Part shown: positions 8,449 through 26,712 of the stretch, piece after piece
Layout: every line of letters starts with the position of its first letter
How positions within the stretch are numbered: position 1 is the stretch's first letter
Assembly: GCF_026309355.1 (NCBI RefSeq)
Contig: NZ_JAPJZK010000001.1
Coordinates: 1,942,501-2,006,500 of the forward strand
DNA from: Spartinivicinus marinus
GTDB lineage: Bacteria > Pseudomonadota > Gammaproteobacteria > Pseudomonadales > Zooshikellaceae
Direction: 5' to 3'
Length of the DNA: 64,000 nucleotides
The notes under the pieces: model-generated
The model's database searches: none
What the model saw: the letters and a program-made list of their open reading frames with translations, nothing else
Told to the model about the DNA's origin: nothing
Position numbers and translations under genes: made by a program

Positions 8449-9012
8449 CTATCCCCGGCCAACTGCACTTTGATCGATTATAGATTGCAGCCTGGCTCTC
8501 ATCCCAGGATCACGGGTTAAGGATAAGCCACGACGAGCTAGCTGCTCTGCTTGTGCATAATTTTGCTGGCTAAGCCGAATTGACGCTAACTCGTAATAGA
8601 CTTCTGGATCATTTGGTGCAACTCGCAGCGCTCTTTCTAAAGTGGCTGCAGCTGCTTCTAAATCACCACTAGCACGCTGCTCTAGAGCCCGATCAATTAA
8701 TCGACGAGCAGCGGGATTGTTGCTCACTCCAGAGTCTGGGTAATCAGGTGTTACATAAGCATATTGATCTTGATTTTCTTGGCGAGGTTGAGTCACTACC
8801 TGAGGCTGACGATATTCAGGACGAGCAGCAGGGGCCGGAGCAACATCCACCACTTCAGGCCGCATATCCCGACCAGGGTCTTGTGATGATGGAATATATG
8901 CGTGCTGTACACAGCCAGTTAATACAGCCAGCATTCCGCCAATAATTGCTGGTTTAAACCACGATGTTTTAAGCTGAAACTGAAATATGCTTGTTTGTTG
9001 AAACACTATCAT
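8449..9012 (-). CDS. lpoP: TPR lipoprotein, LpoP-like activator of PBP1B
   Basis: A lipoprotein signal (GGMLAVLTGC) is followed by a Pro/Gln-rich linker and tetratricopeptide helices from about residue 100 (ARRLIDRALEQRASGDLEAAAATLERALRVAPNDPEVYYELA in outline). The gene starts 9 bp after mrcB on the same strand, with GGGGG before the ATG. In Pseudomonas the TPR lipoprotein LpoP is encoded next to the PBP1B gene and activates that synthase from the outer membrane. Identity with LpoP is inferred from gene order, lipobox and fold; sequence identity was not measured. Confidence 0.75.
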   Translation of the reverse strand: MIVFQQTSIFQFQLKTSWFKPAIIGGMLAVLTGCVQHAYIPSSQDPGRDMRPEVVDVAPAPAARPEYRQPQVVTQPRQENQDQYAYVTPDYPDSGVSNNPAARRLIDRALEQRASGDLEAAAATLERALRVAPNDPEVYYELASIRLSQQNYAQAEQLARRGLSLTRDPGMRARLQSIIDQSAVGRG

Positions 9013-9021
9013 TGCCCCCGA

Positions 9022-11382
9022 CTAGCGAAACAGAGTTCTGAACCAATCTACCACCTTAGACCCTCTCCTTTGAGGTTGGTGACGAATAATGCAGGAAGAT
9101 TCTTCCTGAGGCTCAGAGCCTTTAATAAATGGTAAGTAACGTGCACCTGCACAAGACTCATTGGCAAGCATGCCACTAATTTCATCTACCCATACATAAC
9201 GAACCTGGTCAGGCACTTTTGGTCGCAGTGACTTAGGGTTTACATTAAACATAAAGTCTGTCCAAACCCTTAATGCACCACTACTACCTGTTACTGGTGT
9301 TGGTTTATTATCATCATGCCCCATCCAGACAACTGCTAAGTAGTCCTCAGAATAGCCAGCAAACCAACTATCTCTTTGCTCATTACTGGTGCCAGTTTTA
9401 CCTGCAACACGCACTTTGTTGTTTAACAACCGGTAGGCTCTTCTACCAGTTCCCTCTCGCATAACCTCTTGCATTGCATATTGTAGTAGGTGTACATATT
9501 CACTAGGAATAACTTGCTGTATAGCCAGCGGGTAACGCTGCAGTGGTTTGCCTTCAGCATCCAAAACAGCTCGTATCGTCCTGAGTGGTACTTTAAAGCC
9601 CCCCCCTGCTAGAGTTTGATAAACAGTAGCTACATCCACAGGCGACATGGCTACAGCACCTAACAGTGAAGAGGGATAGGCAGGAAACTCCTGATCAGCC
9701 CCCATTATTTTAAGTAACTGTAGTATTTTTTCCACGCCTACAGTCAGCCCTATATTCGCTGTTGCCAAGTTATAGGATTTAGCCAAAGCCTCATGTAAGG
9801 GCACTGCACCATGGCTTTTATGATCAAAGTTGTTTGGCTCCCACAACTGACCATCCTGAGTTTTAATGCTGACTTTGCTGTCATCCACAAAAGTAGCCAA
9901 AGTATACTGTTCAGGTTGTGTCAGCGCAGATAAGAACACTACTGGCTTAATTAAAGAGCCAATATGGCGCTGGGCATCTACTGCTCGGTTAAATCCTGTA
10001 TAACCTGCCTTACGATCACCAATTACTGCCAGCACATCACCGCTACCTGGTGCTGTAACCACCATAGCACCTTGTAACGCTTTATGCTTTTCATTAGATT
10101 TTCTGATTTTTTTCAGGGTTTCAGTCAGGCTTTTTTGAGCTTGCTGCTGAACGATAGGGTCGAGGTTTGTAAAGATTCTCAGCCCTTGAGAAGTTAGGTT
10201 ATCTTCATCATAGTCACGCTTTAACTGTCTTTTAACCAGGTCAAGGTAAGCATAATAGTGGTTCATTTGTACCTTGCTATGCTTCACCACGCCTAAAGGT
10301 TTCTGCTTAGCCTGGTTTGCTTCCTGCTCAGTAATTACCCCTTGTTGCGCCATTACTTTTAGCACCAGGTTACGACGCTTAAGGGCATTTTTAGGTTTAC
10401 GGCGGGGGTTGTATTGAGAAGGACCTTTAATCATGCCAACTAACAGAGCAACCTTCTCAACTGACAGCTCATTAATAGGCTGACCGAAAAAAAACTGGCT
10501 GGCTAAGCCAAATCCATGAATAGCGCGATTACCTTGCTGACCTAAAAACACTTCGTTGATATAAGTTTCGAGTATTTCATCTTTGTCGTAATGAAAATCT
10601 AATAAACCAGCCATAATAGCTTCATTGGCTTTTCTTTTCAGGCTACGCTCATTCGACAAATATAAATTTTTTACTAACTGTTGAGTTAAAGTTGATCCAC
10701 CTTGAACAGCTCTTCCTGTTTTAAAATTGATATAAAATGCTCTAATAATTGACTTGGGTGACACGCCCCAATGGTCATAATAATTTCTGTCTTCTACCGC
10801 TAATAAAGTAGGAATAAAAGTTTCAGGTAACTGATCCAATTTGGTTAACAAGCGGTCTTCATTTGAGGCAGGGTAAATGCCACCAATTAACTGTGGCTCT
10901 AGGCGTGCTAAAGCTTCTTGGCCCGTTTGATCTACTACCTTTTTAATTTGTTTATTTTGAAAAGTAATTTTTAGCAGAGCTGACTCTTCATAGCCATCAT
11001 CAAACTGAAACCCTCTGGTTTTTACAGTGACTGTATTGCCTTTTTGATGGAACTGTCCCGCACGCTCAACATAGCTAACAGGCTGATAACCAAGCTGATC
11101 CAGCTGTTGCGTCAGCTGCTTCGCGTTAATTCTTCTAGTGGAGAATAACTCCAATGGCTGAGCATAGACTTTTGCAGGAATTGCCCACTTTTTGCCTTCA
11201 AACCTGTCTGTTACTTCAATATCTAGCTTGCTGGCATAACCGGCAAATAGAACACCACCAATGACTAACAACACAGCTGTTAGCTTAAATAGCTTCTTCC
11301 AAAAGCCTCCTTTTTTGGCCTTTCCATTTGACTTCTTACTTTTGTTGGCTGGCTGCCTGCCAGTGCGAATACGTTCAGTCAT
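9022..11382 (-). CDS. mrcB: Penicillin-binding protein 1B, bifunctional transglycosylase/transpeptidase
   Basis: This class A PBP polymerises and cross-links peptidoglycan. The 786-aa protein has a cytoplasmic basic tail, one membrane anchor (about 31-50), the UB2H region, a GT51 domain with EDRNYY (Glu197), GGSTLTQQLVKN and the second Glu in NEVFLG (Glu277). The transpeptidase has SLIK (Ser476), SYN (536-538) and KTGT (662-665), all intact. Length and order match PBP1B rather than PBP1A. The LpoP-like lipoprotein gene follows immediately, so enzyme and activator are probably co-expressed. Confidence 0.96.
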   Translation of the reverse strand: MTERIRTGRQPANKSKKSNGKAKKGGFWKKLFKLTAVLLVIGGVLFAGYASKLDIEVTDRFEGKKWAIPAKVYAQPLELFSTRRINAKQLTQQLDQLGYQPVSYVERAGQFHQKGNTVTVKTRGFQFDDGYEESALLKITFQNKQIKKVVDQTGQEALARLEPQLIGGIYPASNEDRLLTKLDQLPETFIPTLLAVEDRNYYDHWGVSPKSIIRAFYINFKTGRAVQGGSTLTQQLVKNLYLSNERSLKRKANEAIMAGLLDFHYDKDEILETYINEVFLGQQGNRAIHGFGLASQFFFGQPINELSVEKVALLVGMIKGPSQYNPRRKPKNALKRRNLVLKVMAQQGVITEQEANQAKQKPLGVVKHSKVQMNHYYAYLDLVKRQLKRDYDEDNLTSQGLRIFTNLDPIVQQQAQKSLTETLKKIRKSNEKHKALQGAMVVTAPGSGDVLAVIGDRKAGYTGFNRAVDAQRHIGSLIKPVVFLSALTQPEQYTLATFVDDSKVSIKTQDGQLWEPNNFDHKSHGAVPLHEALAKSYNLATANIGLTVGVEKILQLLKIMGADQEFPAYPSSLLGAVAMSPVDVATVYQTLAGGGFKVPLRTIRAVLDAEGKPLQRYPLAIQQVIPSEYVHLLQYAMQEVMREGTGRRAYRLLNNKVRVAGKTGTSNEQRDSWFAGYSEDYLAVVWMGHDDNKPTPVTGSSGALRVWTDFMFNVNPKSLRPKVPDQVRYVWVDEISGMLANESCAGARYLPFIKGSEPQEESSCIIRHQPQRRGSKVVDWFRTLFR

Positions 11383-11979
11383 GTGTTTATGTTTTTTCCT
11401 AAAGACCGTCAGACTGCAATCAGATATTAATGCTTAGAAGCTTTTCGATAGCTCAGATACTTTACTGGCTAATTTGTCAGCACAATAAACGAGTCTAGTT
11501 ATGCTGATAATAAGGTTTGTTACTTACATGATATGTTTGGTTCACATAACACCCTGGCTACTCACTACTTCAAAGCGAAGCACTTATATTTTTCTTGCGT
11601 CAGTTGTCTTACAAAATAGTTGGCTAAAGTGTATTCGATTAGGCTGCTGATTTTCAGAGCAAACCAACAATTTGAGGGAAATTTCTCACTTTTTAAGTGT
11701 ACGGCAACTAGTGGTAGTCCTCTTAGAGAGGCTTTTAGACTGGCTATCAAAAAAGACCAAGGCTGAAAACTCAACAGGTTTACACTGATATGTAACTGAG
11801 TCACATCAAGCGATGCCCAGACCATACAATAAAAATTTAGCCGAGTTTCTGATCAATTATCATACAAGGCACAATAATCAGCTATTATTTATATCAAGGT
11901 GGCAAACTCGATGATGAATGATATGAAGTTTTGTTGTCACCTGAGCAACTTGGTATTTTCAGAGGGCAAGGACTCGAAG
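11383..11979. other. 597-bp stretch upstream of mrcB with a doubtful ORF
   Basis: An 86-codon frame on the minus strand (11565-11825) could encode a Ser/Leu-rich peptide ending YKCFALK. It has no recognised domain, no convincing ribosome-binding site and no operon partner, so it may be part of a decayed repeat. The rest is AT-rich promoter DNA for the TfoX-type gene and for mrcB. Confidence 0.35.
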
Positions 11980-12255
11980 ATGGCAACAGATTTAATCGAG
12001 CTGAAAAACCTAGGGAAAACATCCGTTCAATGGCTTAATGCCGTTGGCATTAGAGACCGCGAAACACTAGAGCAAATTGGTGCCGTGGAAGCCTATTGCA
12101 AAATTAAAACACGCGGATTCAAAGTATCTAAAGTGTTGTTATATGCACTAGAAGGTGCTCTACTCAATGCGCACTGGAACCAGCTTGACCCGTCATTAAA
12201 AGAAAGGTTGATACGGGAAGCAGAGGCCAAAGAACCCAGTGCAGTCAGCCAGTAA
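11980..12255 (+). CDS. TfoX C-terminal-domain protein
   Basis: The 91-aa product consists of a stand-alone TfoX C-terminal domain: IELKNLGKTSVQWLNAVGI, then LEQIGAVEAYCKIK and LLYALEGALLNAHWNQL. This fold contains helix-hairpin-helix-like helices. Full-length TfoX regulates competence, while the role of the isolated domain is unknown. The frame opens at 11899, but ATG 11980 is preferred because AAGGA lies 7 nt before it and the domain starts there. It precedes the cyclic-nucleotide-binding gene, a pairing I recall from the P. aeruginosa region upstream of prrF. Confidence 0.8.
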   Translation: MATDLIELKNLGKTSVQWLNAVGIRDRETLEQIGAVEAYCKIKTRGFKVSKVLLYALEGALLNAHWNQLDPSLKERLIREAEAKEPSAVSQ

Positions 12256-12287: not shown

Positions 12288-13106
12288 ATGTACTTGGTGG
12301 GAGAGCAATTCCCCTATATCAGTGAAGTCATTTCAGAGCTGCAGCTAATCCCTGCCCAGCTTGTTAATGGACTGCCCAGCGAGGCAGCCAATATCTATTT
12401 AGACTCCGTTGCTGACCTTTATACTCAGCATGATCCTGACCAAGTTTTTTTAATTTGCGAGGGAAAGCTCGCAGGTTCGATTAATCAGCGTGAAGTTTTT
12501 TACATGCAAGAGGGTGACATCGTCGGGTTAAGACAAGGCTTTAACCTGCCAAAATGTAAATACAGCAGTAAAGACCCTATTGAGCTGATTCCTTATGATC
12601 GCAAGGCTTTTTTTGAACACATTCAGGCCGACCCAGCCAGACAGACTTTGCTTACTAAATATCTGGTTGGTTATGCAGCTGTATTAGCTGATGGGTTATC
12701 TCGACTCACCCCATATAGTGATAAACCTGCAACTGGTTTTCTCCAAGCAAAAGCAGGAGACACTATTATTAGTGAAGGTGAGCAAGCCGACCACGTTTTT
12801 ATCTTGATGACAGGACGCGCCGAAGTTTATGTACGTGGAGTAAAAGTAGGCAACATTTATCAGGATGAGATCTTTGGTGCCATGGCTATGTTTACTCAAG
12901 AAAAACGCTCAGCAACTGTGATCGCCAAAGATGACTGCACCCTAACGGCCGTACCTAAAGACCAGTTTATTAACCTCATTCAAACTCATCCCAGGGTTTG
13001 CCTTAACCTGATGGAAAATATGGCCAGGCGAATCAACGCACTCAACCAAAAACTAGTTTCACCAGACTCAAATGACTCTGCCAGCTCGGTTGGGATAATG
13101 AGCTAA
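12288..13106 (+). CDS. Cyclic-nucleotide-binding protein (CbpA-like)
   Basis: The 272-aa protein has a cNMP-binding domain in its C-terminal half (about 140-255): KAGDTIISEGEQADHVFILMTGRAEVY, DEIFGAMAMFTQEKRSATV, with the ligand-binding Glu and Arg of the phosphate cassette present. The N-terminal half looks like a second, degenerate copy. There is no helix-turn-helix, so it is not a CRP-type regulator. In P. aeruginosa a cAMP-binding protein gene precedes prrF1-prrF2, and here the gene likewise precedes the two sRNAs. Orthology with CbpA is inferred from this context. Confidence 0.8.
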   Translation: MYLVGEQFPYISEVISELQLIPAQLVNGLPSEAANIYLDSVADLYTQHDPDQVFLICEGKLAGSINQREVFYMQEGDIVGLRQGFNLPKCKYSSKDPIELIPYDRKAFFEHIQADPARQTLLTKYLVGYAAVLADGLSRLTPYSDKPATGFLQAKAGDTIISEGEQADHVFILMTGRAEVYVRGVKVGNIYQDEIFGAMAMFTQEKRSATVIAKDDCTLTAVPKDQFINLIQTHPRVCLNLMENMARRINALNQKLVSPDSNDSASSVGIMS

Positions 13107-13183: not shown

Positions 13184-13220
13184 TTGACAATGCAAATGAT
13201 AACAATTATCATTTGCATTG
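13184..13220 (+). promoter_or_regulatory. Promoter with Fur box for sRNA 1
   Basis: TTGACA (13184-13189), a 17-bp spacer and TATCAT (13207-13212) form a strong sigma-70 promoter. A 33-bp palindrome (13188-13220; 15-bp arms around CAA, core AATGATAACAATTATCATT) overlaps it from the -35 to past the -10 and fits the Fur consensus. Iron-loaded Fur should repress it tightly. Confidence 0.9.
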
Positions 13221-13343
13221 TTGTCGTTGCACAACAGATTTAATCTGTCGATACCTCTTCTGTAGGAAGTTGCTATATACAGGTTATCTCCTCATCAGGC
13301 TAATCACAGACTTTTGCCACTCTATTGAGAGTGGCTTTTTTTT
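13219..13343 (+). ncRNA. prrF1: PrrF1-like iron-responsive small RNA
   Basis: A transcript of about 125 nt is predicted from the Fur-controlled promoter to an 8-bp terminator stem with eight T residues. The 5' part folds into small hairpins (TGTTGT/ACAACA, CAGATT/AATCTG). The 30-nt segment 13278-13307, containing CTCCTCATCAGGCTAATC, is repeated exactly in the second RNA at 13517-13546. This matches the tandem PrrF1/PrrF2 design of Pseudomonas, where the shared core represses mRNAs for iron-using proteins, and the neighbouring genes agree. A 79-codon frame over the region looks spurious. Confidence 0.82.
13316..13343 (+). terminator. Terminator of sRNA 1
   Basis: GCCACTCT pairs with AGAGTGGC across ATTG, followed by eight T residues. 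This is a textbook intrinsic terminator. Confidence 0.93.
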
Positions 13344-13390
13344 GCCTGTCATTCAGCTTTTTAATGCACTAACTTCTCTCACTCTCAATA

Positions 13391-13446
13391 TGCAAATAAA
13401 AATAATTATCATTTGTGTTGACATTTATAAGCTACTTTCCTATTCT
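13391..13446 (+). promoter_or_regulatory. Promoter with Fur box for sRNA 2
   Basis: TTGACA (13418-13423), a 17-bp spacer and TATTCT (13441-13446) form a promoter. The A/T-rich imperfect palindrome at 13391-13415 (AATAATTATCATTTG on its right) resembles a Fur site placed just upstream of the -35. It is weaker and positioned differently from the first box, so the two RNAs may respond to different iron levels. Confidence 0.8.
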
Positions 13447-13452
13447 GTTTAA

Positions 13453-13580
13453 CAGTTGCCACAGGCAACTCTGATAACAACTGTAAGACGTTTACCTGGC
13501 AGTTAAACAGCTTTTTTACAGGTTATCTCCTCATCAGGCTAATCACGGTTCTAAGGCTACCTTTTGGTAGCCTTTTTTTT
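13453..13580 (+). ncRNA. prrF2: PrrF2-like iron-responsive small RNA
   Basis: The second tandem sRNA runs from its own Fur-linked promoter to a terminator at 13555-13580. It carries the same 30-nt core (13517-13546) as sRNA 1 but an unrelated 5' half. That half has AGTTGCC/GGCAACT and a longer CTGTTTAAC/GTTAAACAG stem followed by six T residues just before the core, so a short RNA lacking the core is possible. Duplication with only the core and terminator architecture kept points to selection on the core as the target-pairing region. Confidence 0.8.
13555..13580 (+). terminator. Terminator of sRNA 2
   Basis: GGCTACC pairs with GGTAGCC across TTTT, followed by eight T residues. Confidence 0.93.
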
Positions 13581-13824
13581 GTGCCGTGACTTTTCAATTC
13601 CCTTCCTCATCTAATTAATCACAGATTATTTACGACCTACGTCACCTTTTATAATGAATATTCACATAGGTGCATTAATTTCTTAATCAAATGCTTAATT
13701 TCACTGAAATAAATCAAATCTACTGATATGTTTAAAATAGGTTAAATAATAAACAAGTCGTCTGTTTTTGTAGTGTGACTTTTTTAGTTATATCTTATGT
13801 CGCTATTTAGCTAGCAGGGCACCA

Positions 13825-15288
13825 ATGATAAACACCAAAAAGGGAACTAGTCGTCTTTTTATAGGCTTATTTACATTAAGTCTGGCGGGACATGTAGCTG
13901 CTAGCTCCAGTTCGCTTACCAAACTGAACCAGTCTGTCTCGACAATTAGCCAACAGAAGCAGTCTACACAGCACATCAAACAAGTTTCACAAATAAAACC
14001 CGTTCACAAAAAATCTCTTGGCTTTGTGTACTATCTAATTGGCCAGTTTTATCAAGCTGACCAGCACCCTCAAACAGCCTGCGATTGGTTTCAAAAGTCA
14101 GCCGAACTGGCAGCACTAGAAGGGCAGTATGAATCTGCCCGCTGTATTGCTCCACACAATACGGCAAAAGCGGTATCAATGCTTAGGCAGTCAGCTCAAC
14201 AAGGCTTGGCTGAAAGCCAGGTTTTATTAGGTGAGTGGTATTGGTTCGGCAATATACTACAAAAAGATTATAACCAAGCCCTTTACTGGTTTAATCAAGC
14301 AGCTGCTAAAAAATACCCCAAGGCGATAAATAACCTAGGCATGATGCACCAGCTTGGCCAAGGCGTTGATAAAAATCTGACACAAGCCCTTAGCTATTAT
14401 CAGACTGCAGCTCAATTAGGTCATGCTGCAGCCGAAAATAACCTAGGTTATATGTACGCAACTGGCCTTGGTGTAAAGCAAGATAAAACAGTTGCAGCAC
14501 AATGGTATAAAAAAGCAGCCAAAAAAGATCATCCTGCCGCCTTAAATAACCTAGCCAAAGCTTACTTAATCGGCGATGGTGTAGCCCAAAATCCTAAAAA
14601 AGCTACATATTGGTATCAACGTGCCATTAAAAAAGGCAACAAGTATGCACAATACCGCCTTGGTATTTTGCTGATACAAGGCGAAAAAGTACCCAAAGAC
14701 AGCAAACGTGGTATTTACCTAGTCAGCCAGGCGGCACTACAAAATCACGTCAATGCCCAGTTAGTATTAGGCTCTTATTATCAACAATTTGAAGACCAAC
14801 ACAGCCAGTCACTTTACTGGTTTGAGCAAGCAGCCAAGCAAGGAAGTAAAATTGCCATGGTTAGAGCAGCAGAGCTAATGCTAGAACCTGAAAGTAGATT
14901 ATTTAACCAAGACCAAGCAGTGTTATGGTTAAAAGAGGCTGCTTATAAAGGTGACGCTAGCGCTTATAAGCAGCTGAGCGATGTTTTTCTGAGTAATCAA
15001 AGCCAGCTATTCAATTTACATGAAGGTGTATTCTGGCTGAGCCATGCTGCCAATAATGGAGATAGGATTGCCCAATGGCAGCTTGGTATGCATTATGAGC
15101 TGGGTAATGGAATTGCGAAGGATCAAACTAGGGCTGCCATGTGGTATTGGGAAGCAGCCAAGCAAGGAGTGAAAACAGCTCAGCTAAAACTCGCAGAAAT
15201 GTACCAGCAAGGCCGAGGGGTAAGTCACAATCAGCAGTTAGCTAATTACTGGTATAACCACGCTTCTGAACAAGCTTCCATCAACTAG
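13825..15288 (+). CDS. Secreted Sel1-repeat protein
   Basis: A signal peptide (ending near AGHVAASS) is followed by a run of Sel1-like repeats of about 36 residues through most of the 487-aa protein. Typical units are QALSYYQTAAQLGHAAAENNLG, YMYATGLGVKQDKTVAAQWY and AAMWYWEAAKQGVKTAQ. Sel1 repeats form alpha-solenoids that bind partner proteins. No catalytic domain is seen, so a periplasmic scaffold or envelope role is likely but unproven. It lies between the PrrF-like RNAs and tRNA-Lys. About 240 bp of AT-rich DNA with no recognised Fur site precedes it. Confidence 0.8.
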   Translation: MINTKKGTSRLFIGLFTLSLAGHVAASSSSLTKLNQSVSTISQQKQSTQHIKQVSQIKPVHKKSLGFVYYLIGQFYQADQHPQTACDWFQKSAELAALEGQYESARCIAPHNTAKAVSMLRQSAQQGLAESQVLLGEWYWFGNILQKDYNQALYWFNQAAAKKYPKAINNLGMMHQLGQGVDKNLTQALSYYQTAAQLGHAAAENNLGYMYATGLGVKQDKTVAAQWYKKAAKKDHPAALNNLAKAYLIGDGVAQNPKKATYWYQRAIKKGNKYAQYRLGILLIQGEKVPKDSKRGIYLVSQAALQNHVNAQLVLGSYYQQFEDQHSQSLYWFEQAAKQGSKIAMVRAAELMLEPESRLFNQDQAVLWLKEAAYKGDASAYKQLSDVFLSNQSQLFNLHEGVFWLSHAANNGDRIAQWQLGMHYELGNGIAKDQTRAAMWYWEAAKQGVKTAQLKLAEMYQQGRGVSHNQQLANYWYNHASEQASIN

Positions 15289-15565: not shown

Positions 15566-16489
15566 TTAGCCACAGTCAGGACGATTAGTATCTGCTTTTG
15601 GCGTGCGCCATAGCCAGTCTCCCCACGGTTCTACTCCTTTATACCAAGGTGCACTTGTACTCCGTTTATTATTGCTGACCTCTGGCAGCTGCTCTTCATT
15701 TGCTTCAATAAATATTACACTAGCCACGTTTACATTTGGGGCAAGCCACTGAACAAATTGGGGGGAGCCTACGTCTTTCCTGGCATGAAATGAGCCAGTG
15801 ATTATTACTTTCACTCCACTTTTCATACCATCGCTGAGTTTAACAGCCTCTTCAGCCAGCTTCTTATCTCGAGCTTGTTGAATATTCACCATTGCAACCA
15901 AAGACTTCTGATCTATTTTATTGCAGTGAGCTTCTTCTATTCTCTTCGCTAAGGGTTCTCTAATAGCACCAATGTACGGGCCTTCTGCTTTAGGCTTAGT
16001 AGAACTGTGATATAACGCCATTATTTGCTTCCTGGTAATATTACCCGCCTTGAGTGGTATATTATTTTTAATAGCCAGCCACATCATTGGCCCATAAAAA
16101 TCCCACTGCCAGCCTTTTATCTGTTGCCACTCTAACCAGTTATATAGTTCTGTTTGTGAATTGACTTTGCCATAAGCCCCATCGATTTTTGCTTGCTGAT
16201 CAGAGTTAAGCATTTCCATTACCACTCCGGCCAACTCCCCTTTTGCCTGCAAATACTCAAGTATGGCTAACTGATGCTGATGATGAACGGGGTTATCATG
16301 CGCTTCACCTAAATACAAAACATCAACTTCAGGCAGTTTTTTTAATAGGTCTGCTTCTGTAATCAGCTGTGAATTTTGTTGTTGCCAAATAGGCTTTTCA
16401 GATTGCTTTTCGACAGTTGCCGCACAGCCAGAAATGACACTATAAAAGCAAAATAACCAAGACAATTTTAGTAGTTTACTCACTATCAA
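15566..16489 (-). CDS. ChaN/PhuW-family haem-binding lipoprotein
   Basis: The 307-aa product has a lipoprotein signal (CFYSVISGC) followed by a ChaN (DUF399) domain: VDVLYLGEAHDNPVHHQHQLAILEYL, VVMEMLNSDQQAKID, WQWDFYGPMMWLA, ITGSFHARKDVGSPQ. The family binds haem at an iron-regulated outer-membrane site. PhuW of P. aeruginosa, at the end of the phu operon, is the likely counterpart. It follows hmuV on the same strand but is separated by 190 bp containing a palindromic repeat, so it may be transcribed less than the genes before it. Confidence 0.85.
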   Translation of the reverse strand: MIVSKLLKLSWLFCFYSVISGCAATVEKQSEKPIWQQQNSQLITEADLLKKLPEVDVLYLGEAHDNPVHHQHQLAILEYLQAKGELAGVVMEMLNSDQQAKIDGAYGKVNSQTELYNWLEWQQIKGWQWDFYGPMMWLAIKNNIPLKAGNITRKQIMALYHSSTKPKAEGPYIGAIREPLAKRIEEAHCNKIDQKSLVAMVNIQQARDKKLAEEAVKLSDGMKSGVKVIITGSFHARKDVGSPQFVQWLAPNVNVASVIFIEANEEQLPEVSNNKRSTSAPWYKGVEPWGDWLWRTPKADTNRPDCG

Positions 16490-16679: not shown

Positions 16680-17465
16680 TTACCCCAACAACACAACAGG
16701 TACTTGATAAGTAGGGTGGTTAATTATTTGGCTCTCAATATCAAAAACTTCTTTAATTAAGCCTGGCTTTAATACTTCTGGCGGTTCGCCTAGAACAACT
16801 TGTTTGCCTTCTTTTATCACCATTATCTTGTCAGCATAGCGGGCTGCTAAATTAAAATCATGAAGAATCACCAATACTGCCGTATTACTTGCAGTTAATT
16901 GCCTGGCTAGCTGGAGTGTTAAATGTTGGTGGGAGGGATCTAGTGCAGAGGTCGGTTCATCTAACAACAGCAATCTAGGAGCTTGCTGATTATCGGTAGT
17001 GATTTGTGCAATCACTCTGGCTAAATGAATCCGCTGTTTTTCCCCACCCGATAGCGACGTATAAATACGGTCGCACAAATGCCAAGCATCAACCTGTTCC
17101 ATAGCCTGCTGAATAATCTCAGCATCTTTGTCTTTGCCTGTTGCCCAGGGAATTCGTCCCATCGAGACCACTTCATAACAACTAAAAGCAAAACTCAAAG
17201 CAGAACTTTGTGGTAAAACCCCTATTTGAGTGGCTCTCAGATTATCTGAAATTGCAGATAAAGGCTGTTGATTAATTAATACCTGTCCAGTTGCTGGCAA
17301 GCGCTCTCCAGTAAGCGCTGAAAATAAAGTACTTTTACCTGCCCCATTAGGCCCCAGCACTGCCAGCACTTCACCAGGCATCACTTCAAAAGTAATATTT
17401 TCAATAATGGTTTTGTTCTGGATATTAACCGACAGATTTTGTACTTCTAGCATAGGGTTTTTCAT
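16680..17465 (-). CDS. hmuV: Haem ABC transporter ATPase
   Basis: The 261-aa ABC ATPase has Walker A GPNGAGKST (38-46), Q-loop region, signature LSGGEKQR, Walker B LLLLDEPTSALD and the switch His in VILHDFNLAARYAD. It powers import of haem from periplasm to cytoplasm with HmuU and HmuT. HmuV-type enzymes have this size and the phrase HDFNLAARYAD. It starts 11 bp after hmuU in the tonB-exbBD-hmuTUV operon. Confidence 0.92.
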   Translation of the reverse strand: MKNPMLEVQNLSVNIQNKTIIENITFEVMPGEVLAVLGPNGAGKSTLFSALTGERLPATGQVLINQQPLSAISDNLRATQIGVLPQSSALSFAFSCYEVVSMGRIPWATGKDKDAEIIQQAMEQVDAWHLCDRIYTSLSGGEKQRIHLARVIAQITTDNQQAPRLLLLDEPTSALDPSHQHLTLQLARQLTASNTAVLVILHDFNLAARYADKIMVIKEGKQVVLGEPPEVLKPGLIKEVFDIESQIINHPTYQVPVVLLG

Positions 17466-17476
17466 TGATTTACTTG

Positions 17477-18523
17477 CTATCCACTGATTGTCTGTCGTTT
17501 TTGTAGTAGTAAAAACATAAAGAATGGCGCACCAATCAGAGCAGTCACAATCCCTATGGGTAATTCAGCAGGCGAGATAATTATGCGTGCACACAAGTCA
17601 GCTAAAACCATTAACATTGCTCCTAGCAATGCTGCAGCAGGCAATAGAAAACGATGATCGGGCCCAACAATAAGCCGAATTAAATGGGGAACAACCAGCC
17701 CAACAAAACCAATCATCCCTGCAAAAGCCACTGCAACGCCTACTAACACTGCGGTTACGATAATTAGCCATTTTTTGGCTTTATCAACATTAACCCCTAA
17801 GTGTCGTGCTTCAGAGTCACCTAACAATAAAGCATTAAGTGTATTGGCATAGCGTGGTAGAACTAAAACAACAGCGGCAACCACTAAAGCCATAGTGCCT
17901 ACATTCAGCCAACTAGCGGCACCTAAACTGCCCATTTGCCAGAAAATAATACTTCTGAGCTGATTATCGTCTGCCAGATAATTAATCAGCCCTATTCCTG
18001 CCATGGCAAACGCATTAATAGCAATGCCCGCTAATAGCATCGTGGCGACGGAAGTGCCGTATGGGCTGGTGCCAATTTTAAAAACCAACCAAGTTGCAGC
18101 CAAACCACCTAAAAATGCAGCCATTGTTGTCGCCCAGTGGGCATAACCTGCAGGCCAAGCACTTTCAAATAAAATAGCCGATGCAGCACCTACTGCAGCT
18201 CCACTGGAGACACCTATAATGGCAGGGTCAGCTAATGGGTTTCGAAATAAACCTTGCATTAATGCCCCACTCACTGCCAGTGCAGCACCAATTAATGAGG
18301 CAAGTAAAACTCTGGGAGTACGAATGGACTCAATAATTAGTTGGTTTTGGGAGAAGCCATCACTTGTCGAAGTTAAGGAAAAACCTAAATTATTGAAAAT
18401 AGCAGCAACCACATCAGCTAGATCAATCGACACAGCACCATTAGCAATTCCCAACAACAAGCAAATGGGGAGCCCCACTGCCAGAACAACAATCACTGAC
18501 AGCGCTTTTTGAGATCGTTTCAT
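17477..18523 (-). CDS. hmuU: Haem ABC transporter permease
   Basis: This FecCD-family permease (348 aa) has about ten membrane segments, the hallmark RTPRVLLASLIGAALAVSGALMQG and the coupling region GMIGFVGLVVPHLIRLIVGPDHR, which contacts the ATPase. It forms a homodimeric channel for haem delivered by HmuT. It lies between hmuT and hmuV in one operon. Confidence 0.92.
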   Translation of the reverse strand: MKRSQKALSVIVVLAVGLPICLLLGIANGAVSIDLADVVAAIFNNLGFSLTSTSDGFSQNQLIIESIRTPRVLLASLIGAALAVSGALMQGLFRNPLADPAIIGVSSGAAVGAASAILFESAWPAGYAHWATTMAAFLGGLAATWLVFKIGTSPYGTSVATMLLAGIAINAFAMAGIGLINYLADDNQLRSIIFWQMGSLGAASWLNVGTMALVVAAVVLVLPRYANTLNALLLGDSEARHLGVNVDKAKKWLIIVTAVLVGVAVAFAGMIGFVGLVVPHLIRLIVGPDHRFLLPAAALLGAMLMVLADLCARIIISPAELPIGIVTALIGAPFFMFLLLQKRQTISG

Positions 18524-18572
18524 AAGAGGCAGAAGAAAACCCAGTTATACCATATCAAACACTAAATTAGAT

Positions 18573-19442
18573 TTATGGAACTTTAACAATTGCAGAATGT
18601 AAATCAGGGTATGCTTCAGCTGCTAATTTTTGTGCAGCTTCAACAACTCTAGGCCCAACACCGCCTACCAATAAACTACTATCTACAGTAATCACTCGGT
18701 TATTTTTTGCCGCTGGAGTTTGTATTAAACCTGGCTGCTGCGCAATTAATGTAGCCAGACTACTACTGTTTTTAAACATATGATCAGGCACTATGATCAC
18801 TTCAGGTGCCATTGCTATCAAGCTTTCGCTAGCCAGTTGTCGATAACCTTTAACTGACGTCGCAGCTGGATTTAATATGCCTGCTAATGCCATTAACGTG
18901 TTAGCAGAAGTACCTGTTCCCGCAACCATTGGGGAACGACCGCCCGGCTGAACCAAAAAAACTCCCTTCAAAGGCTTTTTAACAGCTTTTAATTGCTTAG
19001 CCAGCTGCTGCTGATTAGCTCTAATGCCAGCAAGTAATGCCTGCCCTTGAGGCTCTTTACTCACCAGTTTGGCAACTTCAGTTATTCGCTTCTCTAGTGC
19101 TGTTATGGTTACAGCAGTAGGCAGTTGTTGCACATTAATGTTTAAAGACTGCAACTGCTGGATAACATTCGGCGGCCCCATTTCAGCAGAGCCTAGCAAT
19201 AGAGTAGGCTTAAGACTAATTACACCTTCTAACGACAAACTACGATGGTAGCCTATTTTCGGTAGTTTACTGGCAGACTCGGGATATATACTACTAGTGT
19301 CCACTGCCACCAGTTGACCTCCCACACCTAGTGCATAAAGTAGCTCTGTCATTGCGCCACCAGCTGAAATAATGCGCTGCTGAGCTTGAAGCAATGTAGA
19401 CAGTACAACCCCTAGAATTAAAGCGGATAATTTTGCTTTCAT
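18573..19442 (-). CDS. hmuT: Haem-binding periplasmic protein
   Basis: The 289-aa secreted protein is a class III (BtuF/FhuD-like) binding protein with a helical backbone. A signal peptide (MKAKLSALILGVVLSTLLQA) precedes RIISAGGAMTELLYALGVGGQLVAVDTSS. The segment YPESASKLPKIGYHRSLSLEG contains the Tyr that is the axial haem ligand in PhuT/HmuT-type proteins. Its ATG overlaps the exbD stop by one base (TAATG), which indicates translational coupling of the energy module to the importer. Confidence 0.9.
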   Translation of the reverse strand: MKAKLSALILGVVLSTLLQAQQRIISAGGAMTELLYALGVGGQLVAVDTSSIYPESASKLPKIGYHRSLSLEGVISLKPTLLLGSAEMGPPNVIQQLQSLNINVQQLPTAVTITALEKRITEVAKLVSKEPQGQALLAGIRANQQQLAKQLKAVKKPLKGVFLVQPGGRSPMVAGTGTSANTLMALAGILNPAATSVKGYRQLASESLIAMAPEVIIVPDHMFKNSSSLATLIAQQPGLIQTPAAKNNRVITVDSSLLVGGVGPRVVEAAQKLAAEAYPDLHSAIVKVP

Positions 19443-19864
19443 TATTCTCTCTGCATAATAATGTCAGCCACCGCAATTTCATTTTCCTGCAAATAGGCTA
19501 ACAGTTTTAAGAGCTGCTCAGCCTGAGCTTGTTTATCTGCAGCCACCGTGACTTTATCCAGTTTGTTTTGCTGTAACTTTCCATCAAGCACTTTGGTTAA
19601 TTCATCCCACTCAGTAAAAGTGGCAGACTCAATTTGCCAGCCAGTGCCGTCTTTAAGTACTGCTATTTCGATAGGGTTTGGCTTTTTCTGGGGCTCTAGT
19701 GATTCAGAGGCAGCTGCTGGTAAATCAATGGGTAGCAATAACTGAGCGCTGTTTGCAGTAAGGAGAAAAAACACCAGAACAATGAACAATACATCTAATA
19801 GTGATGTTAAATCCGGTAAAAATGAGCCAGATGACTGGTCATCTTCATTGGAAAACTGAATCAT
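19442..19864 (-). CDS. exbD: ExbD, TonB energy-transducing subunit
   Basis: The 140-aa protein has a short cytoplasmic tail, one membrane helix with the essential Asp (D24 in LTSLLDVLFIVLVFFLL) and a periplasmic ExbD domain. With ExbB it converts proton-motive force into TonB motion. Start overlaps the exbB stop (ATGA), and its stop overlaps hmuT. Confidence 0.9.
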   Translation of the reverse strand: MIQFSNEDDQSSGSFLPDLTSLLDVLFIVLVFFLLTANSAQLLLPIDLPAAASESLEPQKKPNPIEIAVLKDGTGWQIESATFTEWDELTKVLDGKLQQNKLDKVTVAADKQAQAEQLLKLLAYLQENEIAVADIIMQRE

Positions 19865-20532
19865 GCTACAGCCTTTAAATTCTGGTCTGAATTGCTTTCA
19901 AGGCTGCCTTCATCATGCTCCTTCACCATCATCTGGCAATGAAACGCATTGAGCCAATGCTGAAGCCGCTGGCAATAACTATTGCTCCAAATATAAAACA
20001 GTTGTGCTCCCACAATCGCAGGCACGGCAATAACCAAGCCAAATGCAGTGGTATACATCGCCTGCCATAAGCCATCCGCAAGAATATTGGGAGTCACCGG
20101 GCCTTGATGTTGAGCAACACCTTTAAACATCACAATCATGCCTAAAATCGTACCTAACAAGCCTAGTAAAGGGCTGATCATGCCTATGAGTTGTAATAGC
20201 TTTAAGCGAGCAGTGTTAGTTTGATGTTGCTTTGCCAACCAGCAAGATAGCTGCTGCTCTCTTACAACGTTTTTACCCTGGTACTCACTTAACAGCTTAA
20301 TACCGACGGCAATACCACGCTGCTTTTTTTGCAGCCAAGCAGGCTGTTCAACCACATTATTTTTCCAGCGACTAAGCAACACAGATAATTTGCTGTCTGG
20401 AATGAGTGGTAACAGTAAAAAATAACAAAGCCGCTCTAAAATCAAAGCGATCATTAGCAGTGAACAAAAGGCCAGTGGATATAACATCCAGCCCATGGCA
20501 TTTAGGGCTTGTTGTAAATAATCAATATTCAT
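19861..20532 (-). CDS. exbB: ExbB, TonB-associated proton channel
   Basis: The 223-aa MotA/TolQ/ExbB protein has three membrane segments and the signature LLQLIGMISPLLGLLGTILGMIVMFKGV, then LADGLWQAMYTTAFGLVIAVPAIV. It forms the pentameric channel that drives ExbD and TonB. It starts 13 bp after tonB and overlaps exbD by 4 bp. It is a dedicated copy for this haem locus. Whether another ExbB/TolQ system exists elsewhere cannot be judged from the window. Confidence 0.92.
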   Translation of the reverse strand: MNIDYLQQALNAMGWMLYPLAFCSLLMIALILERLCYFLLLPLIPDSKLSVLLSRWKNNVVEQPAWLQKKQRGIAVGIKLLSEYQGKNVVREQQLSCWLAKQHQTNTARLKLLQLIGMISPLLGLLGTILGMIVMFKGVAQHQGPVTPNILADGLWQAMYTTAFGLVIAVPAIVGAQLFYIWSNSYCQRLQHWLNAFHCQMMVKEHDEGSLESNSDQNLKAVA

Positions 20533-20545
20533 AAATTAGCCATTA

Positions 20546-21328
20546 TTAATTGAGTTTAAAAACTACTGACTGGATGACTGTAGACTCAACTGGCTTACCT
20601 GCTAGCAACATGGGAGAGCATTGTGTTCTCTTTACCATTTTGAGTGCTTCCCTATCTAACACCGGATAACCAGAGCTTTTCTGAATTGAAATACTTTCCT
20701 TGCCACCCCTTTCATCTAACTCCACTTTTACTAATACCTCTCCTTGCTGATTACGACGTTTTGCTCTAGAAGGGTAATTAAGTTCAGTCTGAGAGCAACG
20801 AGGCTTTGCTTGAGCATTCTTATGACTAGAACCCAGCGATTTTTTTGCCACCACAGGTGTAGCACTTGCCACTTGAGTTTGCTTTTCTGGCTTTTTAATT
20901 GGCTTTTCAGTTTTTTTCGCAACCACAGGCTTTGGTGTTTTTGGTTTAGGCTTCGCTTTTACTACCTTTTTAACCGGTGGCTTTTTGACTGGCTTTGGTT
21001 TGACTACCTTAGCTATTTTAGGCTTTGGCTTAACTGGTTTTTTCTTAACTATTTTCTTAGCTGGTTTTTTTTTGGTAACAGGCTTAGGGGTAGGTTTTGG
21101 CTCAACTTTGGCTACTTCTTGCTTAGGTTCTAGCTGTTTTTCCTCAACAGGCTTTGCCTGAGTAGGCTCCACTACCCGCTGTTTAAAAGTGACATGCTGA
21201 AGTTTAAGAGGTGAACTTAACGCAGCCATTGCCTTCGGCGTTACTTCTGGTTGTTGCTGAAGGAACAACCAAAGCCAACCATGCAATAGAACAGACACAC
21301 TTATGAATAACAGCAACAACCGGCTCAT
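20546..21328 (-). CDS. tonB: TonB energy transducer
   Basis: TonB has a single N-terminal anchor (SRLLLLFISVSVLLHGWLWLFL), a long Pro/Lys-rich periplasmic spacer (PKPKPV, KKPVKP, VKPKPVKKPPVKK repeats) and a C-terminal TonB domain (ELNYPSRAKRRNQQGEVLVKV ... GYPVLDREALKMV). The frame begins with TTG at 21349, but ATG 21328 (260 aa) is preferred because a Fur-type palindrome sits at 21351-21370. It is the first gene of the haem-import operon, so energising and import are induced together. Confidence 0.92.
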   Translation of the reverse strand: MSRLLLLFISVSVLLHGWLWLFLQQQPEVTPKAMAALSSPLKLQHVTFKQRVVEPTQAKPVEEKQLEPKQEVAKVEPKPTPKPVTKKKPAKKIVKKKPVKPKPKIAKVVKPKPVKKPPVKKVVKAKPKPKTPKPVVAKKTEKPIKKPEKQTQVASATPVVAKKSLGSSHKNAQAKPRCSQTELNYPSRAKRRNQQGEVLVKVELDERGGKESISIQKSSGYPVLDREALKMVKRTQCSPMLLAGKPVESTVIQSVVFKLN

Positions 21329-21350
21329 AACCAACTTTATCAAAATCAAC

Positions 21351-21370
21351 TTAATGATAATGATTATTAA
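21351..21370. promoter_or_regulatory. Fur box of the tonB-exbBD-hmuTUV operon
   Basis: TTAATGATAATGATTATTAA is a near-palindrome that fits the GATAAT-type Fur consensus, directly upstream of tonB. A -35-like TTGATT lies about 16-18 bp upstream of AT-rich -10 candidates inside the box on the minus strand. Confidence 0.85.
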
Positions 21371-21448
21371 CTACAAGAAACCGCAAATCAATAGTGGACC
21401 CTCATGTGGGTTCACGTTATTTATGGAATAACTACCAGTGCTTAAGTA

Positions 21449-21547
21449 GGGGATAGATGAACAATACAGAACCTTATGAGGCAAGGATGCCGATTAGAGC
21501 ATCCAGGGAGGGACTTGATGCGTGTTCTGTATTGTTTATGTAGCCCC
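21449..21547. repeat. Palindromic repeat, family 2, copy 2
   Basis: This 99-bp element has 24-bp terminal inverted repeats with three mismatches (GGGGATAGATGAACAATAC... / ...GTATTGTTTATGTAGCCCC) and an inner hairpin GATGC/GCATC. It begins 17 bp after the receptor stop codon, in the same orientation as the copy at 16528-16622. Confidence 0.87.
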
Positions 21548-21564
21548 TTACAGGAAGCTCTTTC

Positions 21565-23550
21565 TTAAAACTTATAACTCACCGCTACTTTGGCATTAAT
21601 CCCTGATTCATCCAACTGTGAGAATGCAGTTCGATAATGGCGATCAGTAACGTTATCTATACCAAAGTCTACCCGTAGCCCTTCTAGTTTTTTCTGACTA
21701 GGCTCCCAACTGACATAAATATCAGTTACCGTATAACCATCATAATTAGACTGAGGGTTACCCACAGGCACTCGATCTTGATTCTTGGCATGAGTCACTC
21801 TTACCCCTGCAGTAACATCACCCTGCATAAAGTAACGCTCTAACCCAACCACCGTTTTATCGGCAGGAATATTCTGTAAATATTGGCCACTGTCTTTGTC
21901 TTTACCGCGAGTACGACCATAGGAAAAATTAACCCCATAATCACCTGTCTTATATTGTGAATCAAACTCATAGCCTTTTAGTTCAGCATCGCGAACATTG
22001 ACATAAGTAGTGGTAAACCTTTCAACATCCTGCTCAATGTAGTTATCCACATCATTTTTAAAATAAGTCAGACGCATACTTAAAATATCGCCCTGACTGA
22101 GCAGATCATTAAATTTAAAGCGGGTACTAAGCTCTTTATTTTTGGCTTCTTCAGGCTTCAAGTTAGGGTTTGGCACAAAGACATTGCCATAGAAGTGGGT
22201 ACCAGAAACATACAACTCTTGTAGGCTTGGTGCCCTAAAAGCCTCATCATAAAGTGCATGAAGGGTTAACCACTCAAATGGGTTATAGCTAATTGCCAGT
22301 GACTTAGATAACTCATTTTCAGTTTGATCTTTACCCACTGAACTGTCGTCTGGTCTGTTATCAAACTGATCAAAACGAAGACCTGGCTGTATCGTCCAGT
22401 AGTCACCCAAAGGAATGGCTAGCTTGGTAAATACGCCCCATACCGTGCTCCGTCCATCAGTAAATTCAGGCCGGTCTGCTCCGTTTCGCTTACCTTCAAC
22501 TCGATCCTGGTAATAGTCCAAGCCATATGTCCAATCTACCCAGCTAAGCTCCGAGGTATTGACTAGCGAAAGGCCCGTCGTGCTATAACGAATCGAGTCG
22601 TGTCTTGGTGCACCCGTTTTCTTAAATTCATTTAGCTTAGTGTAATTATGATAAAGGGTGGCATTTACATTTACCCAGTCGTTATTTTCTGGGTTTAACT
22701 CATAACCAACCACCCAGTTATTTTGCTCGGTTTTACGATTGATTAATGGATTAGACCGCGCTGAAACATTAGTAGAGGGATTGGATGGCACATTCTCATC
22801 AATATGGTTCATATGATAAGTAAACTTCAGCATTTCATCTTCAGCTAAATGCCAGCGCCATTTAGCTAGCCCACCCTTATGCCGAGACGCAGAATTTTCT
22901 AACTCTTTTCCACTGCCCAGCCTTAACTCATTACTATCTGTATAAAAGGTGCTTAGCAAATAATCGGTATTGCCTAAACGACCAGCCAGTGTCGTATTGT
23001 TGCGATTATCATGATCCGCTTTTTGATAACCCTGCTTAACCTTTACTGCAACGTTTTCATCAGGATTAAGAATGTCGTCAGCATCAATGGTTGTCAGACC
23101 AATAGCTCCGCCAATTGCACCACTACCCCACAGTGAACCTGATGCACCTTTAACTACCTCTACTGACTTCAATAATTCCGGTTCAATAAAAAATAACCCA
23201 CGGTGAGCACCGTCACTGAAATTTTGCCGAGCACCATCAATCACTTGAACAATTCTGCGCTCATCTAAACCACGAATATTCACTCGCTGGGAAGCTTTTC
23301 TTGGCCCAGCTGACACTTGTACATTCGACAAGTGCTTTACAGTATCCGCAATACTATCCGGCTGCTGTAGTGAAATAGACTCACTATCAACCTGATCTAC
23401 TGATTTAGGCTCTTTTTGAGTAGTTGTTTCTGAGCGTGTGGCGGTTACCACTACCTCATCAAATGTGACTTTTTGACTGGCCCAACTAGAAACGCTAACA
23501 GCTAATGCACTGGCTAAAGCAGTGAGCTGCCAATATGGCTGCTCTGTCAT
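21565..23550 (-). CDS. phuR: TonB-dependent haem receptor
   Basis: The 661-aa outer-membrane receptor has a signal peptide, a TonB box (DEVVVTATR), a plug domain (VQVSAGPRKASQRVNIRGLDERRIVQVIDGARQNF in outline) and a 22-strand barrel ending in aromatic Phe. FRAP (438-441) and NPNL (461-464), the haem-receptor hallmarks, are both present. The frame extends to TTG 23586, but ATG 23550 is preferred because GGGGGGAT lies just upstream and it gives a normal signal peptide. A Fur-boxed promoter lies 250 bp upstream. Substrate is haem or haemoproteins by family; the exact host is unknown. Confidence 0.9.
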   Translation of the reverse strand: MTEQPYWQLTALASALAVSVSSWASQKVTFDEVVVTATRSETTTQKEPKSVDQVDSESISLQQPDSIADTVKHLSNVQVSAGPRKASQRVNIRGLDERRIVQVIDGARQNFSDGAHRGLFFIEPELLKSVEVVKGASGSLWGSGAIGGAIGLTTIDADDILNPDENVAVKVKQGYQKADHDNRNNTTLAGRLGNTDYLLSTFYTDSNELRLGSGKELENSASRHKGGLAKWRWHLAEDEMLKFTYHMNHIDENVPSNPSTNVSARSNPLINRKTEQNNWVVGYELNPENNDWVNVNATLYHNYTKLNEFKKTGAPRHDSIRYSTTGLSLVNTSELSWVDWTYGLDYYQDRVEGKRNGADRPEFTDGRSTVWGVFTKLAIPLGDYWTIQPGLRFDQFDNRPDDSSVGKDQTENELSKSLAISYNPFEWLTLHALYDEAFRAPSLQELYVSGTHFYGNVFVPNPNLKPEEAKNKELSTRFKFNDLLSQGDILSMRLTYFKNDVDNYIEQDVERFTTTYVNVRDAELKGYEFDSQYKTGDYGVNFSYGRTRGKDKDSGQYLQNIPADKTVVGLERYFMQGDVTAGVRVTHAKNQDRVPVGNPQSNYDGYTVTDIYVSWEPSQKKLEGLRVDFGIDNVTDRHYRTAFSQLDESGINAKVAVSYKF

Positions 23551-23599
23551 TGGAATATCCCCCCAGATATTGGAGGTTGTCACCAAAATCTAGTATCCG

Positions 23600-23803: not shown

Positions 23804-23836
23804 TGCAAATGATAATAATTATTATTTGCAAGTCAA
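23804..23836 (-). promoter_or_regulatory. Promoter and Fur box of the haem receptor gene
   Basis: A near-perfect 27-bp palindrome (23804-23830; TGCAAATGATAATAATTAT then TATTTGCA) overlaps a minus-strand promoter, TTGACT (23836-23831) and TATCAT (23814-23809) with a 16-bp spacer. It closely resembles the box of sRNA 1. It may also affect the divergent Rieske gene. Confidence 0.87.
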
Positions 23837-25806: not shown

Positions 25807-26712
25807 ATGACTGCCCCGCAATATATTGGACGATTTGCCCCCTCTCCCACTGGCCCACTGCATTTTGGCTCGCTAGTCAGTGCTGTTGCCAGTTATCTTG
25901 ACGCCAAAGCCAACCAAGGCCAATGGCAAGTTCGTATTGAAGATACCGACCCTCCCCGTGAACAACCTGGTGCCGCCAGTTTAATTTTAAAAGCCCTTGA
26001 GATATATGGCCTTTATTGGGATGGCCCTGTGGTTTATCAATCAAAGCGGAGCGAGCTATATCGCGCAGCCCTGACAAACTTACAGACAGAAGGCTTTAGT
26101 TTTTTTTGCACCTGTTCGCGCAGGCAGCTGACAGGCCAGTCGGTTTACCCTGGATACTGTCATGATAAAGCCTTAGAGCCGGATGATGATCACTCTATCA
26201 AAGTCAAAACAGCCAACCATAAAGTGATTTTTGATGACCTAGTTCAAGGGATTCAACAATGTCAGTTCGGTGTAGATGATGGCGACTTTGTCGTGTTTCG
26301 TAAGGATGGCTTATTTGCTTATCAACTCGCCGTAACCGTCGACGACCAAGAACAGGGAATTACTCATATTGTTAGAGGTTCTGACCTGCTGACATCCACC
26401 CCCAAGCAGTGCCTGCTACAGCAGTATTTAGGTTATCAAACCCCTTTCTATGCCCATCACCCTGTGATTAATAAAGAGGACGGTAGCAAGCTCAGTAAAC
26501 AGACTTTTGCTAACCCACTACCACTAGACATGCCTGCTCCACAACTGCTACGCGCTTTGATTGCACTAGGGCACACCCCACCTAAAGCGCTAGCCAATAG
26601 CTCAGTAAATGAGATTATTGAGTGGGGAGTTCAGCACTGGCAACTACCAAAAGTGCCAAAGGCAATAGGAATACCTGAAGCGGCATTACAGGAAACATTT
26701 GGTCAGAGCTAA
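25807..26712 (+). CDS. gluQ: Glutamyl-Q tRNA(Asp) synthetase
   Basis: GluQ attaches glutamate to queuosine in the tRNA-Asp anticodon. It resembles the catalytic half of glutamyl-tRNA synthetase without the anticodon-binding domain. The HIGH-type motif PSPTGPLHFGSL, the zinc ligands CTCSR...YPGYC and the KMSKS-type motif GSKLSKQT are seen. Length (301 aa) is typical. The stop codon overlaps that of the flagellin gene on the opposite strand by a few bases. Confidence 0.93.
   Translation: MTAPQYIGRFAPSPTGPLHFGSLVSAVASYLDAKANQGQWQVRIEDTDPPREQPGAASLILKALEIYGLYWDGPVVYQSKRSELYRAALTNLQTEGFSFFCTCSRRQLTGQSVYPGYCHDKALEPDDDHSIKVKTANHKVIFDDLVQGIQQCQFGVDDGDFVVFRKDGLFAYQLAVTVDDQEQGITHIVRGSDLLTSTPKQCLLQQYLGYQTPFYAHHPVINKEDGSKLSKQTFANPLPLDMPAPQLLRALIALGHTPPKALANSSVNEIIEWGVQHWQLPKVPKAIGIPEAALQETFGQS

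Follow-up and report, generated by a model that had tools for sequence, protein, structure and literature searches.

Tandem PrrF-family small RNA genes, probably under Fur control, beside a haem uptake locus in Spartinivicinus marinus, and PrrF-like loci across the Pseudomonadales

The window analysed here, a stretch of 64,000 nt from the Spartinivicinus marinus genome, carries two small RNA genes in tandem whose identification as PrrF homologues is very well supported by homology; their function is predicted. We are highly confident that the locus encodes two PrrF-family sRNAs that are Fur-controlled, Hfq-aided and iron-sparing, a description in which transcription, Fur repression, Hfq dependence and target repression are all deduced from sequence. 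When iron is plentiful, Fe-Fur would occupy both promoters and both genes would be silent. When iron is scarce, sRNA A and sRNA B would be transcribed, each ending at its own terminator. With the help of Hfq, their shared core UUAUCUCCUCAUCAGGCUAAUCAC would pair with mRNAs of dispensable iron proteins (sodB, sdhC, the aconitases, leuC and bacterioferritin) at their ribosome-binding regions; this would block translation, promote mRNA decay and thereby spare iron.

The two units lie on the + strand of a 718-nt intergenic region between a gene for a cyclic-nucleotide-binding protein (12288–13106, +) and a Sel1-repeat gene (13825–15288, +). Unit 1 starts with a sigma-70-like promoter at 13184–13212 (TTGACA at 13184, a 17-nt spacer and TATCAT at 13207; 11 of 12 consensus positions), overlaid by an unstranded Fur box at 13187–13221 that is a near-perfect palindrome (16-bp inverted repeat, 3-nt centre; 15/19 to the E. 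coli 19-mer). The predicted sRNA A of ~125 nt (13219–13343, its 5′ end placed from the promoter; fold z −2.4) comprises a 5′ hairpin (13219–13236), the putative target-pairing core (13278–13307) and an intrinsic terminator (13316–13335 with eight Ts; predicted extent 13316–13343). In unit 2 the likewise unstranded Fur box (13390–13420, 14/19 to the same 19-mer) precedes a sigma-70-like promoter at 13418–13446 (TTGACA at 13418, 17-nt spacer, TATTCT at 13441; 10 of 12 consensus positions). The predicted sRNA B of ~129 nt (13452–13580; fold z −3.7) again has a 5′ hairpin (13454–13470), a putative target-pairing core (13517–13546) and an intrinsic terminator (13553–13574; predicted extent 13553–13580). 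The Fur box thus differs in position, lying over the spacer and −10 element in unit 1 and upstream, overlapping the −35 element, in unit 2. With the unit 2 promoter taken downstream of its Fur box, the presumed RNA start falls exactly at the hairpin, the situation also seen in unit 1; this agreement supports the two 5′ ends. On the − strand, neither a terminator nor a promoter-like site was found between 12900 and 13900.

A first-pass annotation of this DNA had proposed two promoter-to-terminator units, each with a Fur-type palindrome and an intrinsic terminator, that share an exact 30-nt core and little else. All of these elements were located, and the identity between the two core copies extends over exactly 30 nt. 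This is the longest exact repeat in the intergenic region; 1000 first-order Markov simulations gave a maximum of 14 nt (mean 9.7 nt). The remark that little else is shared holds for the sequence and fails for the architecture, because the units also have in common the Fur box and a 5′ hairpin with covariation. We also considered a small protein gene in place of RNA, as an open frame of 79 codons is present at 13213–13452. Its start codon is TTG, it crosses the sRNA A terminator and enters the second promoter, and conservation follows the core and the hairpins, with insertions and deletions separating the species, so that a coding gene is scarcely credible here.

The 5′ hairpin covaries across copies A and B, Zooshikella, family f2 and Pseudomonadaceae: 96% of cells are paired, and three pairs carry changes on both sides. 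None of 500 shuffles was as good, and slid versions of the hairpin collapsed. The set consisted of eight sequences hand-picked from an alignment, and we regard the covariation as supportive, not decisive. Minimum-energy folding predicts that the core is partly paired, fairly strongly in sRNA B, which counts against the proposed mode of action.

Searched against Rfam at gathering threshold, the window as a whole gave only a tRNA, a result that alone would have suggested refutation of the PrrF assignment. A permissive search of 601 bases at the locus then matched both units to the PrrF covariance model RF00444 over its full length (positions 1–150 of 150), at 13184–13343 for sRNA A (66.2 bits, E 5.3e-11) and at 13385–13581 for sRNA B (67.7 bits, E 2.5e-11). 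The first-pass annotation had proposed comparison with this model; both RNAs match it significantly and throughout, at scores under the Rfam gathering score of 90 bits. We file them as PrrF homologues, even though Rfam itself would not list them, because the gathering score is a curated cut-off against noise that reflects no biological feature. These two are the only RF00444 matches in the 6.88-Mb genome, and 14 control genomes gave none. Other permissive Rfam matches (mir-374, Phe leader, rliG and others) lie far under their cut-offs and were dismissed as chance.

Both units have the core, a Fur box at the promoter, the 5′ hairpin and the intrinsic terminator of PrrF. The PrrF core UCUCCUCAUCAGGCUAAUCAC is exact in both copies, and identity to Pseudomonadaceae prrF runs letter for letter over 24 nt. 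A 26-nt form of the core occurs exactly in 104 genome-contig stretches, and nearly all of those among the matches listed are from Pseudomonadaceae, with Zooshikella in addition. Non-homologous RNAs of the RyhB or NrrF type that had converged on the PrrF mode of action would account for scores under the cut-off and for whole aligned units that are only about 34–52% identical to copies of other families. We consider such convergence very unlikely in view of the 24 identical core letters, the intermediates in Zooshikella and family f2 (79–84 bits) and, above all, a synteny shared in the same orientation, which already largely refutes it. Up to E 10, the permissive search at the locus gave no match to the RyhB or NrrF models.

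The published prrF neighbourhood lies beside cbpA and the phu haem operon (PMC7948967, PMC6922518), and the first-pass annotation had noticed the same neighbours here, a cAMP-binding protein gene and a phu haem locus. This observation was borne out in order and orientation by tblastn of the window proteins. Upstream of the pair, a conserved mrcB gene (PBP1B; 9022–11382, −) and a gene for a TfoX C-terminal domain (11899–12255, +) are followed by the cyclic-nucleotide-binding gene, a cbpA orthologue (PF00027) with 47–51% identity to those beside prrF in G097, G191, G024 and G005. Downstream lie, all on the − strand, a gene for a ChaN-like haem-binding protein in the position of phuW (15566–16489; PF04187), the haem ABC transporter genes phuV, phuU and phuT (16680–19442; the ATPase above the cut-off of NF010068) and, completing the haem locus, the genes for an ExbB-like protein, TonB and a TonB-dependent haem receptor (19861–23586; the receptor with 566 bits to TIGR01785). 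The series formed by the gene at 8449 (−), mrcB (−), tfoX_C (+), cbpA (+), two prrF copies, chaN (−), phuV (−), phuU (−) and phuT (−) is the same in G097, a genome of family f21 with tandem prrF copies of 140–141 bits. Most of this order also occurs in G191 and G024 of f21, which we take to be the Pseudomonadaceae from its PrrF scores and gene order, and in G005 and G050 of another family (50–51% CbpA identity). In Spartinivicinus, the Sel1 gene and a tRNA-Lys gene are inserted between prrF and chaN.

The synteny also bears on the possibility that the sRNA genes were recently acquired from a Pseudomonas by horizontal transfer, for which the identical core in Pseudomonadaceae could be cited. 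That identity is limited to the core while the remainder has diverged, the flanking genes stand in unchanged order at 31–57% protein identity, intermediates occupy the same position in Zooshikella and f2, and searches of phage and plasmid collections with the core found nothing. Recent transfer is quite improbable.

Elsewhere in the 64-kb window, just two other strong Fur-like sites reach 15/19, one at 21350–21374, just upstream of the tonB and exbB-like genes, and one at 23805–23829, just upstream of the haem-receptor gene, so that the whole haem locus looks Fur-controlled. A flagellin gene elsewhere in the window (26709–28835, −) encodes a protein of 708 aa whose N- and C-terminal domains are ordinary and whose middle ~480 aa lack any Pfam match.

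The first-pass annotation had suggested pairing of the core to the start regions of sodB, acn and sdh mRNAs. We compared the start regions of iron genes chosen a priori with those of 357 other genes of the same genome, taken from 20 stretches and the window. Start codons and 5′ UTRs were set by rule, and target identities were checked with NCBIfam. Predicted core pairing was far above chance, ranking in the top 0.6% of the 357 genes for sodB, 0.8% for sdhC, 0.6% for leuC, 1.7% for acnA, 4.5% for acnB, 1.1% for bacterioferritin and 2.2% for a Dps-like gene, with the reservation that the CUCCU in the core lets any Shine-Dalgarno sequence add to pairing, for which the 357-gene ranking controls only in part. 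None of 400 dinucleotide-shuffled cores reached the mean target pairing, and the non-core 5′ halves of the two RNAs gave no signal in the same test (39% and 53%). Complementarity to the core takes the form of short, telling stretches such as CCUGAUGAGGA in bfr, over the Shine-Dalgarno sequence, and GAUGAGGAUAAC in leuC. The predicted pairing of sodB, leuC, bfr and acnB is found again in congeners, and also in Zooshikella, where the positions are shifted. Both fur and hfq genes are present in the genome. The predicted pairing supports a RyhB/PrrF mode of action.

Among three Spartinivicinus genomes, copies A are 81–86% and copies B 85–89% identical, far more than copy A is to copy B (about 40%), which places the duplication before the split of the Spartinivicinus species. 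Zooshikella has one copy. The two tandem copies of Pseudomonadaceae share 74% identity, and neither stands closer to A than to B in particular. On these sequence comparisons, the Spartinivicinus duplication is probably separate from that of P. aeruginosa, although gene conversion in Pseudomonas could produce a similar picture. A separate duplication makes the Spartinivicinus copies co-orthologues of the PrrF locus and not of PrrF1 and PrrF2 singly. The first-pass annotation's phrase 'true PrrF orthologues' is accordingly upheld by the full-length RF00444 match, the 24-nt core and the synteny, and needs amending where it implies one-to-one correspondence. In one congener, a third, dispersed copy was seen on contig 46 of G001 (L144:7166–7230, −); in this minimal PrrF the 5′ hairpin is missing and the core and terminator follow almost directly after the Fur box.

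Tandem arrangement raises the question of whether a single copy is active, or whether the main product is a read-through RNA over both (~360 nt). In P. aeruginosa, terminator read-through yields PrrH (PMC2851614), and the spacing is similar, with ~108 nt between the sRNAs here and 95 nt there. Of the PrrH system, in which read-through past the first terminator responds to haem, the present locus displays the tandem arrangement. Each unit nevertheless has an intact promoter, Fur box and terminator, and both copies have been retained in three species at 81–89% identity. We therefore regard either possibility as unlikely and favour two separately terminated sRNAs.

At E ≤ 0.001, RF00444 had matches in 58 of 391 genomes of the order Pseudomonadales (31 of 142 genera), and the Rfam cut-off was exceeded by family f21 only, at loci with the Pseudomonas-type gene order. 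A second model, R1, which describes the core and terminator without the Fur box, matched 64 of the 391 genomes (32 of 142 genera); R1 was built partly from loci found with RF00444, so its count is not independent of the first; the weakest matches of either model in the order (E near 1e-3, partial) are doubtful. R1 is almost a sequence model, because terminators of unequal length do not align by sequence and the RNAalifold structure of the core and terminator alignment kept only 3 pairs. Across the class, R1 matched 5 of 369 genomes, four of them belonging to the order. The fifth match (G750; model positions 33–68 of 68, E 2e-4) covers the core end and terminator and is a probable chance hit. 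A Fur-like site of at least 13/19 within 150 nt upstream was found at 92% of 61 core loci and at 4% of control stretches, the former figure leaning high since some of the 61 loci had come from the Rfam model, which includes the Fur box. Even in distant families, prrF has a CbpA homologue (34–42% identity) as its neighbour, and sometimes phuUV.

Several of these loci depart from the common form. At L146, L147, L094 (Zooshikella) and L050, prrF directly follows tfoX_C with no detectable cbpA homologue, and cbpA seems to have been lost. Arrays of five and three tandem PrrF-like copies, each copy with its own Fur-like box and terminator, were seen at L152:7550–8839 (G259), L159:7649–8500 (G366) and L158:8240–8930 (G105); three of the copies in G259 are nearly identical, and its array lies between cbpA and phuUV homologues. 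At L165:8286 + (G297), L176:8464 − (G199) and L170:8352 − (G061), an inserted hairpin splits the core between a UCUCUCAUC half and a GCUAAUCACGG half, suggesting two separable pairing segments. In family f20, Fur-box RNAs at L171:8391 −, L172:8731 − and L177:7989 − keep the first core half only, with UCUCUCAUCAGGAGCU, and are possibly a related but different iron RNA.

Taken together, we lean towards the view that PrrF, rather than having arisen in Pseudomonas, is an iron-sparing RNA shared by much of the Pseudomonadales and anchored beside cbpA and the haem locus. It would have a near-invariant two-part core, UCUCCUCAUCA plus GCUAAUCACGG, split by an inserted hairpin in some lineages, and would have undergone several independent tandem multiplications (two copies in Spartinivicinus, three or five elsewhere). 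The Spartinivicinus pair itself is RNA of an ordinary kind, found where it was not expected; of greater interest is a family that would extend across the order and have grown in tandem repeatedly. PrrF, described as specific to Pseudomonas, would then range through the wider order, with most of its distribution hidden by the Rfam cut-off, and a marine tandem with the same neighbours, together with PrrF-like loci in 32 of the 142 sampled genera, would date the system much earlier. The published tandem has been linked to haem signalling and infection. It has been described as restricted to P. aeruginosa (PMC2851614), or as present in P. aeruginosa and single strains of two other species (PMC4211561). 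If the order-wide view is true, the tandem, and perhaps PrrH-type read-through, is not special to P. aeruginosa. The natural variants (split cores, one to five copies, a minimal copy lacking the 5′ hairpin) offer test material for the target-pairing parts and for the purpose of the tandem. Our literature search found PrrF described in Pseudomonas and ArrF in Azotobacter and none elsewhere, a picture from which subscription papers and Rfam listings could differ.

Azotobacter lies within the Pseudomonadaceae, whereas Spartinivicinus belongs to the Zooshikellaceae. Like the RNAs described here, ArrF of Azotobacter vinelandii is a PrrF homologue outside the genus name Pseudomonas, and it is iron-repressed (cited in PMC2851614). 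RyhB of Escherichia coli and NrrF of Neisseria serve the same purpose: both are repressed by Fur and turn off sodB, sdh and further iron proteins. PrrF and RyhB have no sequence homology (PMC4211561). The closest counterparts are PrrF1 and PrrF2 of P. aeruginosa (RF00444), which agree with the Spartinivicinus RNAs in their Fur box, 5′ hairpin, identical 24-nt core, intrinsic terminator and tandem arrangement, in their location between cbpA and a haem uptake operon, and in predicted targets (sodB, sdh, acn and ferritin-type genes). In contrast to P. aeruginosa, the Spartinivicinus pair has a probably separate duplication, scores below the Rfam cut-off and a unit 2 Fur box upstream of the −35 element, and is separated from the phuW counterpart by a Sel1 gene and tRNA-Lys; its two copies are ~40% identical, compared with 95% in P. 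aeruginosa (PMC4211561).
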